64,000 nucleotides of DNA from Jonesiaceae bacterium BS-20. GTDB lineage: Bacteria > Actinomycetota > Actinomycetes > Actinomycetales > Cellulomonadaceae. The position numbers and the translations under genes were made by a program. How positions within the stretch are numbered: position 1 is the stretch's first letter; each line of letters begins with the position of its first letter. The notes under the pieces were generated by a model. The model made no database searches, was not told the DNA's origin, and saw only the letters and a program-made list of their open reading frames with translations. This document shows, in pieces, positions 32,154 through 38,049 of this stretch. The DNA lies in contig CP146203.1 in the NCBI GenBank assembly GCA_039995105.1, forward strand, positions 744,001 through 808,000, written 5' to 3'.

Positions 32154-32435
32154 GACAGCTGAAAAACTTGATTGTTACGCCATGTTACGGCCCGTGGACG
32201 TTGATAATGGGCCGAAGTGTGAAATGAATATCAATATTTGAGAAATAAAGCAACTCAAGTCGAACTTATATCACTTCGGTAACGAAGTTTCCGCTCACTC
32301 CGAAAATTGCAACGGCAAGCGTTAAACGTGGGTACCGTTGTACCTAACACTATGGGAGCCACTGTGCCGTTTTGTTCAGAAGCTATGACAGGTTCTGCAA
32401 AAAAAGTTTCGGCACCTCCCATTCTTCAAGGAGGA

Positions 32436-34088
32436 ATGTTGAAGATCAACAAGCTCGTTGGGGCGGCCGCAGCCGTTCTGACCGCATCGCTTGTGCTGAC
32501 CGCTTGCGGTGCCAGCGACAAGCCAAAGGAAAGCGAAACACCATCGGCTTCCGAGGGTACCGACAAGCCATCAGGCTCGGGCGCGACCTTCCAGATTGCA
32601 TACAACGCTGACGGTGGCCACCAGGCATGGGTTGACGCTGTAACTAACAGCATCAAGAACACCCTTGAAATCGATGCTAGCGGCGCGCCATACCCAACCT
32701 TTGGTGACTTCCGTACGGAAATTACCGAAGAGAAGATCCAGACCGGTTTCCGCACCGGTTGGCAGGCTGACTACCCAAGCCTCTACAACTTCCTTGGCCC
32801 GCTGTACGGCACCGGAGCCGGTTCAAACGACGGTCGTTACTCATCCGAGGAATTTGACGCAGCGATCAACGCGGGTCTGCAGGCAACTGACCTTGCTTCC
32901 GCAAACGCTGAGTTTGACAAGGCACAAGAGGTACTCCTCAAGGATCTGCCAGCAATTCCACTGTGGTACGCCAACGTCAACGGTGGCTGGTCAAAGGATG
33001 TTGAGAACGTAGTCTTTGGCTGGAACTCCGTTCCGCTGTACTACGCAATCACCAAGGCGGATGGTTCAGCAGTCACCGCTAACGGAACCGAGCCAGCAAA
33101 CGGTCTGATTCCAACCATGACCAACGAGGTCGGTGGCGGACGCATCATGGACCTCGTCTTCACCGGTCTGGTGACGTACACCGCCGAGGGTGAAACTCAG
33201 AACGAGATCGCTGAGTCCATCACTTCGGAAGACAACGTAACCTGGACCATCAAGATCAAGGGTGACAAGAAGTTCACCAACGGTGAAGCCATCACCGCCA
33301 AGTCATTTGTTGATGCTTGGAACTGGGGTGCTGCGCTCAACAACAAGCAGCTCAACTCCTACTTCTTTGAGAACATCAAGGGCTTCTCATGGGATGAGAA
33401 CGTAGAGGCTATGGAAGGACTTGAGGTCGTTTCCGACACCGAGTTCAAGGTGACCCTGAACGGTCCACAGGCTGACTACCCGCTGAGTCTCGGCTACACC
33501 GCGTTTGTGCCACTGCCATCGGTTGCATACGACGACATGGCCGCCTTTGGTAAGGCTCCAATCGGTAACGGTCCATACACGATCGTTGACGGCTCATGGA
33601 AGAAGGACGTCTCAATCGACCTCGTTCCAAACGCTGACTACAACGGCAACCTCAAGGCCGCCAACTCCGGTATCAACTTTGTCTTCTACGACTCCTATGA
33701 CACCGCGTACAACGACCTGCTCTCAGACAACTTGGACGTCATTGACGGAATCCCTGACTCTGCATTCACCACCTACGAAGAGCAGCTCGAAGGCCGCGCA
33801 GTCAACCAGCCAGCCGCTATCTTCCAGTCCTTCACCATCCCAGAGCGTCTAGACCACTTTGGAATGGATGAAGAAGGCCAGCTGCGCCGTGCTGCAATTT
33901 CCATGTCGATTGACCGTGAACTGATCACGGAAAAGATCTTCGCAGGCACCCGTACCCCAGCTAAGGACTTCACTTCACCGGTTATCGCCGGTTGGAATGA
34001 CTCCCTTGCCGGTGTAGACGTGCTGTCCTACAACCCAGAAGAAGCTAAGAAGCTTTGGGCGCAGGCAAACGAAATCAGCCCTTGGTAA
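32436..34088 (+). CDS. Peptide ABC transporter substrate-binding lipoprotein, apparently circularly permuted
   Basis: About 550 residues with a lipoprotein signal (LTAC, Cys24). Residues 50-207 are what normally forms the C-terminal end of family 5 (DppA/OppA) binding proteins: FQIAYNADGGHQAW, SSNDG-like GAGSNDGRYSSEEFD, LPAIPLWY, then FGWNSVPLYYAITK. Residues 208-550 then give the normal N-terminal part: NGTEPANGLIPTMTNEVGGG, FTGLVTYTAEG, the conserved NGEAITAKSFVDAWNWG and LPSVAYDD, ending NPEEAKKLWAQANEISPW followed at once by TAA. In usual proteins the last phrase leads straight into FQIAYNADGG. AAGGAGG lies only 1 bp before the ATG and 4 bp before a TTG (32439), so the TTG may be the true start. 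It binds oligopeptides outside the membrane. Confidence 0.85.
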   Translation: MLKINKLVGAAAAVLTASLVLTACGASDKPKESETPSASEGTDKPSGSGATFQIAYNADGGHQAWVDAVTNSIKNTLEIDASGAPYPTFGDFRTEITEEKIQTGFRTGWQADYPSLYNFLGPLYGTGAGSNDGRYSSEEFDAAINAGLQATDLASANAEFDKAQEVLLKDLPAIPLWYANVNGGWSKDVENVVFGWNSVPLYYAITKADGSAVTANGTEPANGLIPTMTNEVGGGRIMDLVFTGLVTYTAEGETQNEIAESITSEDNVTWTIKIKGDKKFTNGEAITAKSFVDAWNWGAALNNKQLNSYFFENIKGFSWDENVEAMEGLEVVSDTEFKVTLNGPQADYPLSLGYTAFVPLPSVAYDDMAAFGKAPIGNGPYTIVDGSWKKDVSIDLVPNADYNGNLKAANSGINFVFYDSYDTAYNDLLSDNLDVIDGIPDSAFTTYEEQLEGRAVNQPAAIFQSFTIPERLDHFGMDEEGQLRRAAISMSIDRELITEKIFAGTRTPAKDFTSPVIAGWNDSLAGVDVLSYNPEEAKKLWAQANEISPW

Positions 34089-34257: not shown

Positions 34258-35184
34258 ATGCTCCGATATGTCGGGCGGCGAGTCCTGCAGATGATCCCCG
34301 TGTTCTTCGGGGCGACTCTGTTGATTTACGCAATGGTGTTTGGTCTGCCTGGAGACCCAATTCAGGCGATGGGTGGAGACCGTGGTCTATCGCCCGAGGT
34401 TGCCGCTCAAATTAGTGCGCAGTACAACCTGGATAAGCCTTTTTTCATTCAATATCTTTTATATATCAAAGGGATCTTGACGCTCGATTTCGGTATGACC
34501 TTCTCCGGTGAGCAGGTCATCGACGTTATCGCTCGAGCATTCCCAATCACCATCAGGCTCGCGCTCATGGCACTCGTACTTGAGGCCGTTTTTGGTGTTC
34601 TGTTTGGTTTCATCGCAGGAATGCGAAAGGGCGGGATCTTCGACGGCACCGTTCTCTTGGTCTCACTGCTCCTGATTGCCGTACCAACCTTCGTTGTTGG
34701 TTTTATCATGCAATTCTTTGTTGGAGTTAAGCTCGGTTGGCTGCCCACAACAGCGGGAGATGGGACGAGCCTCAAATCGCTTCTGATGCCAGCGATTGTG
34801 CTGGCTGCCGTCTCCTTTGCATACGTCTTGCGCCTTACCCGCACGGCGGTTGCAGAAAACGTAAGCGCGGACCACGTGCGTACTGCGACGGCGAAGGGCT
34901 TGCCGTATTCTCGCGTCACCGTGGTGCACATTTTGCGTAACTCGCTGATCCCGGTAATTACCTTCCTGGGGGCCGACCTTGGAGCGCTCATGGGTGGGGC
35001 AATCGTCACCGAGGGAATCTTTAATATCAGTGGTGTGGGTGGAACCCTATACCAAGCAATTATTAAGGGGGAACCCGCTACGGTTGTCTCCTTTGTGACA
35101 ATCCTGATTGTCGTCTACATCGTTGCCAACCTCCTTGTAGACATGCTGTACGCATTACTTGACCCAAGGATTCGATATGCCTGA
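34258..35184 (+). CDS. Peptide ABC transporter permease (DppB/OppB type)
   Basis: A 308-residue permease with six TM segments. It starts MLRYVGRRVLQMIPVFFGATLLIYAMVFG (usual DppB N-terminus) and has LPGDP and the EAA-loop region TATAKGLPYSRVTVVHILRNSLIPVITFLG (about 205-235), which contacts the ATPase. It ends LLVDMLYALLDPRIRYA, typical for the family. GAGGAAGG precedes ATG 34258 by about 9 bp. Its last 8 bp overlap the start of the second permease. It forms the membrane pore with that partner. Confidence 0.93.
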   Translation: MLRYVGRRVLQMIPVFFGATLLIYAMVFGLPGDPIQAMGGDRGLSPEVAAQISAQYNLDKPFFIQYLLYIKGILTLDFGMTFSGEQVIDVIARAFPITIRLALMALVLEAVFGVLFGFIAGMRKGGIFDGTVLLVSLLLIAVPTFVVGFIMQFFVGVKLGWLPTTAGDGTSLKSLLMPAIVLAAVSFAYVLRLTRTAVAENVSADHVRTATAKGLPYSRVTVVHILRNSLIPVITFLGADLGALMGGAIVTEGIFNISGVGGTLYQAIIKGEPATVVSFVTILIVVYIVANLLVDMLYALLDPRIRYA

Positions 35185-36139
35185 TAACAATAAGCCACGG
35201 GTCAAGTACCCCAAGCAAGAACACTTCGTTGCAGACGCCAGCAAGCTGGAAGAGCTCGTAGTCGACCGGATCGATGAAAATACTCTTTCCGCAAGCTTGT
35301 GGCAAGAAGCCTGGCGCAATCTGCGCCGGCGGGTCATGTTCTGGGTGGCCGCGGTCTTGATCCTCGCCGTCCTTGTCGTGGCATTCTTCCCATCGCTGTT
35401 TTCGAGCGTGGATCCTGCGTATTGCAGCCTGATCACCTCGCTTGATCCACCTACCGCAGGTCACCCATTTGGGTTTGACCGGCAGGGTTGCGACATTTAC
35501 GCACGCGTAATCTATGGCGCGCAAGCCTCGGTTTCGGTCGGGGTGGTGACAACACTGATCGTGGTGATCCTTGGTGGCACTATCGGTGCGCTTGCCGGGT
35601 TCTTTGGCGGGTTCTGGGATTCGCTGCTGTCACGTATCACCGACATCTTCTTCGCAATTCCACTGGTGCTCGCTGCGATCGTCGTTGGACAAGTATTCCG
35701 CTCCAATGCTGGTATCTGGGGAGTGGTAATGGTTCTGGGGGTCTTTGGATGGCCTCAGATCGCCCGTATCACCCGCGGTGCCGTCATCGGGGTCAAGAAC
35801 AATGACTTTGTAACGGCCGCTCGTGCTTTGGGTGCTAGCCGTTGGAACATCTTGTTCAAACACGTGCTCCCTAACGCAGCTGCCCCGATCATTGTGGTCG
35901 CAACGACCTCACTTGGCGTGTTTATCGTTGCCGAGGCCACCTTGTCCTTCCTTGGTATTGGGCTTCCGCAGGGCGTCCTATCCTGGGGACACGACATCGC
36001 CACGGCGCAGGTATCTCTGCGGACGAACCCAATGATCTTGTTCTACCCATCCATGGCGTTGGCCATCACGGTGCTTGGCTTTATTTTGCTCGGTGACGTA
36101 GTCCGTGATGCACTCGATCCAAAGGCGCGCAAACGATGA
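35177..36139 (+). CDS. Peptide ABC transporter permease (DppC/OppC type)
   Basis: A 320-residue protein from ATG 35177 (AAGGA 7 bp upstream). It has a ~45-residue cytoplasmic N-terminus, a first TM at VMFWVAAVLILAVLVVAFFP, then the DppC region HPFGFDRQGCDIYARVIYGAQASVSVG, and the EAA loop AARALGASRWNILFKHVLPNAAAPIIV. It ends LGDVVRDALDPKARKR. It pairs with DppB to form the channel. Its end overlaps the start of the fused ATPase gene by 4 bp, so the four-gene operon is tightly coupled after the hairpin. Confidence 0.93.
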   Translation: MPDNNKPRVKYPKQEHFVADASKLEELVVDRIDENTLSASLWQEAWRNLRRRVMFWVAAVLILAVLVVAFFPSLFSSVDPAYCSLITSLDPPTAGHPFGFDRQGCDIYARVIYGAQASVSVGVVTTLIVVILGGTIGALAGFFGGFWDSLLSRITDIFFAIPLVLAAIVVGQVFRSNAGIWGVVMVLGVFGWPQIARITRGAVIGVKNNDFVTAARALGASRWNILFKHVLPNAAAPIIVVATTSLGVFIVAEATLSFLGIGLPQGVLSWGHDIATAQVSLRTNPMILFYPSMALAITVLGFILLGDVVRDALDPKARKR

Positions 36140-38049
36140 CTGAAAATCAAGCAATGACACCGTTACTCGACGTTACGGATCTTGACGTTACATTTACTAC
36201 GGCGGCGGGCGTGGTCAACGCGGTCAAAGGTGCAAACCTGACCGTGTACCCGGGACAAACCGTTGCGATTGTGGGGGAGTCCGGATCCGGTAAGTCCACC
36301 ACGGCCCACGCGGTCATCAACCTTTTGCCGGGAACCGGTAAGGTCACCGGCGGGTCCATCAAGTTCGATGGTGAGGAGCTCACTACCGCCTCGAAGAAGC
36401 GGATTGTCGAGCTTCGAGGCCGCGACATTGGTTTGGTACCACAGGACCCTATGTCTAACCTGAACCCCGTTTGGAGTATCGGTTTCCAGATTAAGGAGAC
36501 CCTGAAAGCCAATAACGTGGATGTTTCTAGGACTGCGATTAGCAAGCTAGAGGCCGGGTTGGATGCCGCTGAGAGTGAATTCATTATCGGCTCCAAGTCG
36601 CTCAAACTGCTGAAGGCAGAACTCGGTGACAAGGCCGCTCTGATCGACGGCAAGATCGTGGCCGGTGCGACGTCCAAGAGCGGCGTCATCAAGGCCCTTT
36701 CAGCGGTGGGCGTTCCCAACGCGGATGCGCTGGCTGCAAAGTATGTCACCGGTGCAACCAAGAATGACCGCGTAGCGGGTCTCCTTGCAGAAGCAGGTTT
36801 GGCCGATGCCGCCCGGCGGGCAAAGCAGTACCCGCACGAGTTCTCCGGTGGTATGCGGCAACGCGCACTCATTGCTATTGGCTTGGCCGCGCGGCCAAAG
36901 CTCCTGATTGCCGATGAACCAACCTCGGCTTTGGACGTAACCGTTCAGCGGCAGATCTTGGATCACCTCGAAGGTTTGACCCAAGAATTTGGAACCGCTG
37001 TCCTGTTCATTACCCACGACCTAGGTCTGGCCGCCGAGCGCGCCGAGCACCTGGTAGTGATGTTCCGCGGTGAGGTTGTCGAATCCGGACCCGCGCTAGA
37101 GATCTTGCGCAACCCGCAACACCCGTACACCCAGAAGTTGGTAAAGGCAGCGCCTTCGTTGGCTTCCCGGCGTATTCAAAGCGCCAAGGCCGCGGGTGTT
37201 GAGGCGACCGACCTCTTGGCGCCAACCGCCGGGCACGGCGTGGATGAGGCTCGACCAAACGTCATTGAAGTTGAGCGCCTTTCCAAGGTGTTCCACATCC
37301 GTGGCCAAAAGGGTGACGCCAAGAACTTCAAGGCGGTTGACCACGTGTCATTTGCTTTGCAGCAGGGCACCACGCTTGCGATTGTGGGAGAGTCCGGCTC
37401 CGGTAAATCAACCGTAGCCAACATGGTCCTGAACCTTCTTGAGCCCACCGAGGGTGTGATCAAGTTTGATGGCCGTGACCTGGCAGGTCTCAGCGCCCAG
37501 GAACTGTTCAAGTTCCGGCGTCGGGTGCAGCCAATTTTCCAGAACCCATACGGCTCGCTCGACCCCATGTATTCGATCTTCCGAATCCTGGAAGAGCCTT
37601 TGCGGGTGCACAACATTGGCAGCAAGACCGAACGTCGCCAGCGCGTCAAAGACGTCTTGGAAATGGTGGCCATGCCAGAGTCCACCATGCGCCGGTACCC
37701 CAATGAACTGTCCGGTGGTCAGCGTCAGCGCATCGCGATCGCGCGGGCGCTAGCGTTGTCGCCAGAGGTGATCGTGTGCGATGAGGCTGTATCAGCGCTT
37801 GACGTTCTGGTTCAAGCGCAAGTCCTTGAACTACTCAATGACTTGCAGGCCGAGTTGGGCTTGAGTTACCTGTTCATTACCCATGACCTGGCCGTTGTGC
37901 GCCAAATCGCGGACGAGGTCATTGTGATGGAGAAGGGCAAGATCGTCGAACACGCATCAACCGATGAGGTCTTTGATAGTCCTTCCGCCGAGTACACTAG
38001 GCAGTTGCTTGAGGCAATTCCAGGTGGCTCGATCGAGCTAGGCGTTTAA
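36136..38049 (+). CDS. Fused double ATP-binding subunit of the peptide ABC transporter (DppD-DppF type)
   Basis: A 637-residue fusion of two nucleotide-binding domains. Domain 1: Walker A GESGSGKST (~47-55), Q-loop VPQDPMSNLNPV, signature FSGGMRQR (~236-243), Walker B LLIADEPTSALD. Domain 2: Walker A GESGSGKST, FQNPYGSLDPM, signature LSGGQRQRIAIARAL, Walker B VIVCDEAVSALD. Both have the oligopeptide-type C-terminal extension (NPQHPYTQKLV; SPSAEYTRQLLEAIPG). Domain 1 carries an extra segment of about 80 residues (~132-212; helical, Lys/Ala/Ser-rich) between the Q-loop and signature, absent in usual members. It drives peptide uptake with ATP. ATG 36136 overlaps the permease stop. Confidence 0.92.
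   Translation: MTENQAMTPLLDVTDLDVTFTTAAGVVNAVKGANLTVYPGQTVAIVGESGSGKSTTAHAVINLLPGTGKVTGGSIKFDGEELTTASKKRIVELRGRDIGLVPQDPMSNLNPVWSIGFQIKETLKANNVDVSRTAISKLEAGLDAAESEFIIGSKSLKLLKAELGDKAALIDGKIVAGATSKSGVIKALSAVGVPNADALAAKYVTGATKNDRVAGLLAEAGLADAARRAKQYPHEFSGGMRQRALIAIGLAARPKLLIADEPTSALDVTVQRQILDHLEGLTQEFGTAVLFITHDLGLAAERAEHLVVMFRGEVVESGPALEILRNPQHPYTQKLVKAAPSLASRRIQSAKAAGVEATDLLAPTAGHGVDEARPNVIEVERLSKVFHIRGQKGDAKNFKAVDHVSFALQQGTTLAIVGESGSGKSTVANMVLNLLEPTEGVIKFDGRDLAGLSAQELFKFRRRVQPIFQNPYGSLDPMYSIFRILEEPLRVHNIGSKTERRQRVKDVLEMVAMPESTMRRYPNELSGGQRQRIAIARALALSPEVIVCDEAVSALDVLVQAQVLELLNDLQAELGLSYLFITHDLAVVRQIADEVIVMEKGKIVEHASTDEVFDSPSAEYTRQLLEAIPGGSIELGV

Follow-up and report, generated by a model that had tools for sequence, protein, structure and literature searches.

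The window analysed here, a stretch of 64,000 nucleotides from the genome of Jonesiaceae bacterium BS-20 (contig CP146203.1, positions 744,001 to 808,000), carries an intact operon of the dppABC-DF type on its forward strand. The first gene (32436 to 34088; ORF list and phmmer alignment) encodes a DppA-like protein of 550 amino acids when read from the ATG at 32436 and is preceded by the Shine-Dalgarno-like sequence AAGGAGG (32428 to 32434, from reading the sequence). It is followed by genes for a DppB-type permease with a BPD_transp_1 domain (34258 to 35184), a DppC-type permease with BPD_transp_1 and OppC_N domains (35159 to 36139), and a fused DppD-DppF-type ATPase with two ABC_tran domains (36136 to 38049), all assigned from the ORF list and a domain search. 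As listed, the dppC ORF begins inside dppB; its actual start may be near 35174. The typA/bipA gene is located downstream of these genes, and a gene for an anion channel of the SLAC1/TDT type (PF03595; 31068 to 32153) lies just upstream of the operon.

The DppA-like protein starts with a lipoprotein signal peptide (32436 to 32507) resembling those of relatives with the normal segment order; the lipobox LTAC-G occupies residues 21 to 25, and Cys24 is encoded by nucleotides 32505 to 32507. As relatives read GG-[TTG/GTG]-KI, the TTG at 32439 may be the start codon instead of the ATG at 32436. A low-complexity linker (residues 25 to 50; 32508 to 32585), for which the structure model gave pLDDT values below 50, leads from the lipidated cysteine to the first folded strand. 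Then follow about 157 residues that are C-terminal in a normal DppA (residues 51 to 207; 32586 to 33056), the turn ADGS (residues 208 to 211; 33057 to 33068) and about 340 residues that make up the N-terminal two thirds of a normal DppA (residues 211 to 550; 33066 to 34085), after which the stop codon is reached. The last residues, ISPW, mark a breakpoint designated BP1. The ADGS turn, delimited by both alignment and model, connects LYYAITK, formerly the C-terminal strand, with AVTANG, formerly the N-terminal one; linkers of this kind are absent at either end of normal genes.

Using phmmer against PDB sequences, residues 51 to 210 were found to match chain residues 380 to 539 of Mtb DppA (Rv3666c; PDB 6e4d, 7jls, 8wd9) with 161 bits, and residues 211 to 550 to match chain residues 29 to 377 with 364 bits. 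The two blocks together tile the whole of normal Mtb DppA in swapped order, and both segments align at full length with this protein and with substrate-binding proteins (SBPs) of family 5/cluster C. PF00496 was matched with an E value of 4.8e-48 over profile positions 3 to 277 only, the match falling in the later of the two segments, as a permutation predicts. An earlier note on this DNA had claimed that 32436 to 34088 encodes a circularly permuted DppA/OppA-type (family 5, PF00496) lipoprotein, and this was confirmed by the sequence comparisons: the ORF, the Cys24 lipobox, the order of the segments, the position of the junction and the intactness of signal peptide, frame and operon were all as described, and the 5' segment, on which the claim hinged, does align with the C-terminal 160 or so residues of the family. 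Two details had to be revised. The C-terminal segment itself stands, but it begins at residues 51-52 (TFQIAYN) and not at residue 50, and the junction near 33057, which had been thought free of extra sequence, contains ADGS as a short added linker.

The window protein shares with Mtb DppA and other family 5 members homology over its whole folded part, a lipoprotein export signal and a location beside DppB and DppC permeases and ATPases of the oligopeptide type; a like fold is predicted for it. What it lacks is the canonical N-to-C order of the family 5 fold: unlike in Mtb DppA, the segments are swapped at BP1, the termini lie in the ISPW/FQIAYN loop, and the old termini are joined by a turn. 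Only a portion of the permuted chain is matched by Pfam and NCBIfam models, a warning that proteins of this type are split or given too low a score in profile searches and annotation.

The search for relatives made use of the permuted protein as the query, with which a normal gene gives two swapped matches and a permuted gene one collinear match. Collinear matches were obtained in G018, G054, a Bifidobacteriaceae record (L031), G1365 and G1313, over nearly the whole protein in seven further genomes of the window's own family, in more genomes of the same order, and in G817, which belongs to another order. In all, about 20 other genomes, including single-contig ones, had the swapped order of the window gene, most of the proteins concerned being 45 to 66% identical to the window protein; the normal order that the earlier note suggested looking for was found in about 170 sampled relatives. 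An assembly or sequencing artefact that swapped the two parts of a normal dppA has nothing in its favour except the oddity of the gene itself, and its probability is negligible: the 3.53-Mb genome consists of one contig with 99.98% completeness, and as the same order occurs, in frame and with a signal peptide, in some 20 other genomes from several families, misassembly was excluded. A doubled-query search of 169 sampled genomes of the order revealed the gene in 89, in seven of which it was permuted, always at BP1. In family f45, one of the 12 gene-bearing genomes was permuted, and of the five sampled genomes of its genus the other four had the normal order; these frequencies are estimates from genome samples. 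A search of plasmids gave as best rows either two-piece matches, of the kind produced by normal-order genes, or distant relatives. One genome (G352) contains three diverged permuted paralogues on different contigs (L204, L205 and L206), of which L204 is very divergent, with at most 45% identity to any other.

Four breakpoints were identified, in relatives spread over the phylum. BP1, the ISPW/FQIAYN loop used in the window, is present in five lineages. At BP2 (L150/L208, genome G1027) the protein starts with DVRRRQAVSMAI and ends with ELAASWHG; at BP3 (L157/L207, G1424) it starts with LSGVTVVDDRTLEV and ends in the preceding loop; and at BP4 (L155/L209, G1313) it starts with NAFRTGWQFDYPS and ends after FAGLRTEVNDAK, L209 finishing in a nonhomologous tail. 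BP3 and BP4 were seen in one genome each, and BP2 in one full gene and one fragment; the latter comes from another genome of that genus, is 84% identical and has the same end point. When projected onto PDB 7jls by means of phmmer, the breakpoints fall approximately, since the edges were taken from the best stretches only, at 377|380 (BP1), 310|311 (BP2), 145|146 (BP3) and 427|430 (BP4). The model of the window protein places the equivalents of BP2 to BP4 between helices and strands. All four breakpoints lie no more than a few residues from the positions at which normal-order genes vary most in length (resampling P = 0.0004). A doubled-query scan also flagged L025 as a candidate fifth breakpoint; on alignment it proved to be of normal order, the signal region having produced noise.

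Where the two were compared, permuted and normal genes occupy the same operon slot. Two normal-order relatives of the window gene, L243 and L244, lie in the same gene arrangement, their products being, respectively, 74 and 69% (DppB), 68 and 66% (DppC), 64 and 68% (DF-type ATPase) and 83 and 82% (TypA) identical to those of the window; this shared arrangement, flanks included, places the permuted gene of the window in the orthologous slot. Likewise, permuted L235 shares its slot with normal L233 and L236 of the same genus, L213 with L054 and L060, and L209 with L110. The signal peptides of the permuted genes also match those of the local normal genes which, together with the local flanks, argues for permutation in place.

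An alternative is that a single ancient permutation at BP1 was spread by horizontal transfer, gene conversion from resident normal copies having mimicked the local character of the genes. Similar junction turns (TK-ADG, TK-AEGG, SK-PEGG) in several lineages would fit such a history, although a beta-hairpin is likely to be closed by a turn of the ADG type, and the likeness can therefore be convergent. Trees built after rotating all proteins into the normal order require seven to eight changes between normal and permuted order (eight on the maximum-likelihood tree). In approximately unbiased (AU) tests, a single clade of all BP1 proteins was rejected (lnL 242.7 lower, p = 0.00018), as were clades uniting f1, the group that holds the window gene, with f19 (p = 0.00076) or with f45 (p = 0.0005); as the groups were chosen once the first trees had been seen, these p values are somewhat generous. 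Clades of f1 with f3 and of f1 with f20 were not rejected, and these three groups, which could form a single clade, may go back to the same BP1 event.

The f19 and f45 permutants belong to different well-supported groups of normal genes, and trees of the separate halves agree on this: with the N-terminal as well as the C-terminal half, the f19 pair groups with normal Microbacterium genes, the f45 permutant L214 with normal f45 genes, L209 (BP4) with normal L110 and L207 (BP3) with normal relatives. The f19 pair, L210 and L213, is 78 to 79% identical to normal Microbacterium genes vs 66% to other permutants. The window gene joins the remaining f1 permutants on trees of the whole protein and of the N-terminal half; on that of the C-terminal half it lies outside them, beside normal L162, with a weak support of 79, which makes the placement of its C-terminal half uncertain. 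From the rejected clades it follows that BP1 arose at least three times (in f1, possibly with f3 and f20, in f19, and in f45), and as BP2 to BP4 require events of their own in any case, at least six permutations took place. With slot and signal peptides local and each half of the f19 and f45 permutants grouping locally by itself, spread from one ancient BP1 event is improbable.

The window gene very probably encodes a working lipid-anchored DppA-type protein in permuted form, in which the fold and the partnership with DppBC-DF would have been kept and which, like others of its kind, arose in place, the permutation having been a recurrent event. The most likely route is tandem duplication of dppA within the operon, after which the C-terminal half of one copy would have been fused to the N-terminal half of the next and the product trimmed. 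The old termini are adjacent strands that a tight turn could close at little cost, and we infer that this would explain why ADG-like linkers recur. No fused N-C-N-C intermediate was found among the loci examined, and the route is for that reason an inferred one; tandem normal-order copies, the raw material for it, are common at such loci.

Seven tandem normal-order dppA-like genes, about 39 to 47% identical to the halves of the window protein, lie in one such locus (L248; G039:C1:724500-742500). Two tandem normal-order copies are present in the Cryobacterium loci L047, L049, L052, L053 and L061, with about 220 bp between the end of the first copy and the start of the conserved core in the second. 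Open frames of more than 1100 codons in G039, G298 and G350, considered as candidate N-C-N-C intermediates, were found to be separate tandem normal genes.

AlphaFold2 (AF2), given the normal-order homologues as separate halves, predicts an SBP fold for the permuted chain (pLDDT 82.9, pTM 0.80). Confidence at the junction was low to moderate as a consequence of the poor alignment of normal-order fragments there; the old terminal strands (model residues 178 to 184 and 189 to 194) are parted by a four-residue turn. A wider alignment (A2) built for the modelling was poorer than the first one. The best Foldseek matches of the model were Mtb DppA structures, covering only the longer half (about 350 of 510 residues), as is to be expected from a sequential aligner. 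If the chain folds as predicted, its folded part would begin, past the signal peptide and flexible linker, with the strand FQIAYN, in what known DppA/OppA structures suggest is the second lobe, run to the old C-terminus, pass through the tight ADGS turn into the old N-terminal strand and end at ISPW. The ligand site, the fold and the partnership with DppBC-DF would be retained, only the positions at which the chain starts and ends being different; as these have moved, the membrane anchor would hang from the other lobe. Whether such an anchor alters docking onto DppBC, so that the repeated use of BP1 reflects selection for a recurring adaptive switch and is not a neutral by-product of duplication, was also considered, and we regard this as rather unlikely.

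The window gene is the sole family member found in its genome. Asp112, encoded at 32769 to 32771 and located in the motif GWQADYPS in an alignment of permuted and normal proteins, is conserved in 23 of the 24 permuted proteins and in 164 of the 170 normal ones and is likely equivalent to the Asp of Mtb DppA that was mutated in PDB 8xfc, according to the title of that entry; as a sign of peptide binding, the conserved DYPS Asp is only suggestive. The dN/dS values between permuted pairs, about 0.2 to 0.35 and leaning high because they take in some upstream sequence, indicate purifying selection. Combined with the intact operon and the conserved putative binding-site Asp, this points to an active peptide-binding protein, the likely function of which is ordinary peptide import. 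The nonhomologous tail of L209 (BP4) might raise the suspicion that the gene is decaying or has been diverted, its permuted product no longer serving the transporter. Such a fate is very unlikely, given the purifying selection, the retention of the Asp in nearly all permuted proteins, and the intact permease and ATPase genes downstream of the only family copy in the genome.

Circular permutations found in nature are usually viewed as single ancient events that set distant homologues apart. Recurrent permutations of one fold, as in the DNA methyltransferases, for which more than one is known, are usually ascribed to duplication and trimming. Circularly permuted GTPases are another recurrently permuted family, going by the available text of the source (PMC2430557). 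The permuted methyltransferases and GTPases are ancient separate families, whereas here permuted and normal orthologues share an operon slot and, in f45 and f19, a genus. Some cases are young, as is seen from the f45 genus, with only one of its five sampled genomes permuted, and from f19, in which L213 and normal L054 are about 79% identical.

The earlier note knew of no natural permuted member of family 5, and the search of the openly accessible literature agrees with this, none having been found there. The only naturally permuted SBP in that literature was TpMglB-2 (Tp0684) of Treponema pallidum, a lipoprotein of an ABC importer classified as 'Type Ic / Cluster Bc', which still binds glucose and for which the authors propose tethering as a reason (PMC4990184, available text). 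It belongs to the Type I sugar-binding class, a fold class other than that of the window protein, for which the matches listed were family 5 type proteins and not Type Ic members. In addition, the permuted part of TpMglB-2 is poorly conserved in sequence and may come from another gene, and recurrent permutation in place, of the kind described here, is not reported for it in the available text (PMC4990184). Family and phenomenon are therefore both known; the unusual part is the degree of recurrence at one locus, with at least six permutations at four sites in one orthologous gene and operon slot. The matched natural pairs that result allow the study of how a permutation originates and of folding, ligand release and the position of the lipid anchor in ABC importers.

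In the f3 genus g43, an SRR motif is present in the signal peptides of the permuted genes L112, L124, L128 to L130 and L212 (ISRRSFGLG, ISRRMFGG), which suggests that these permutants, unlike the window protein, are exported via Tat instead of Sec.
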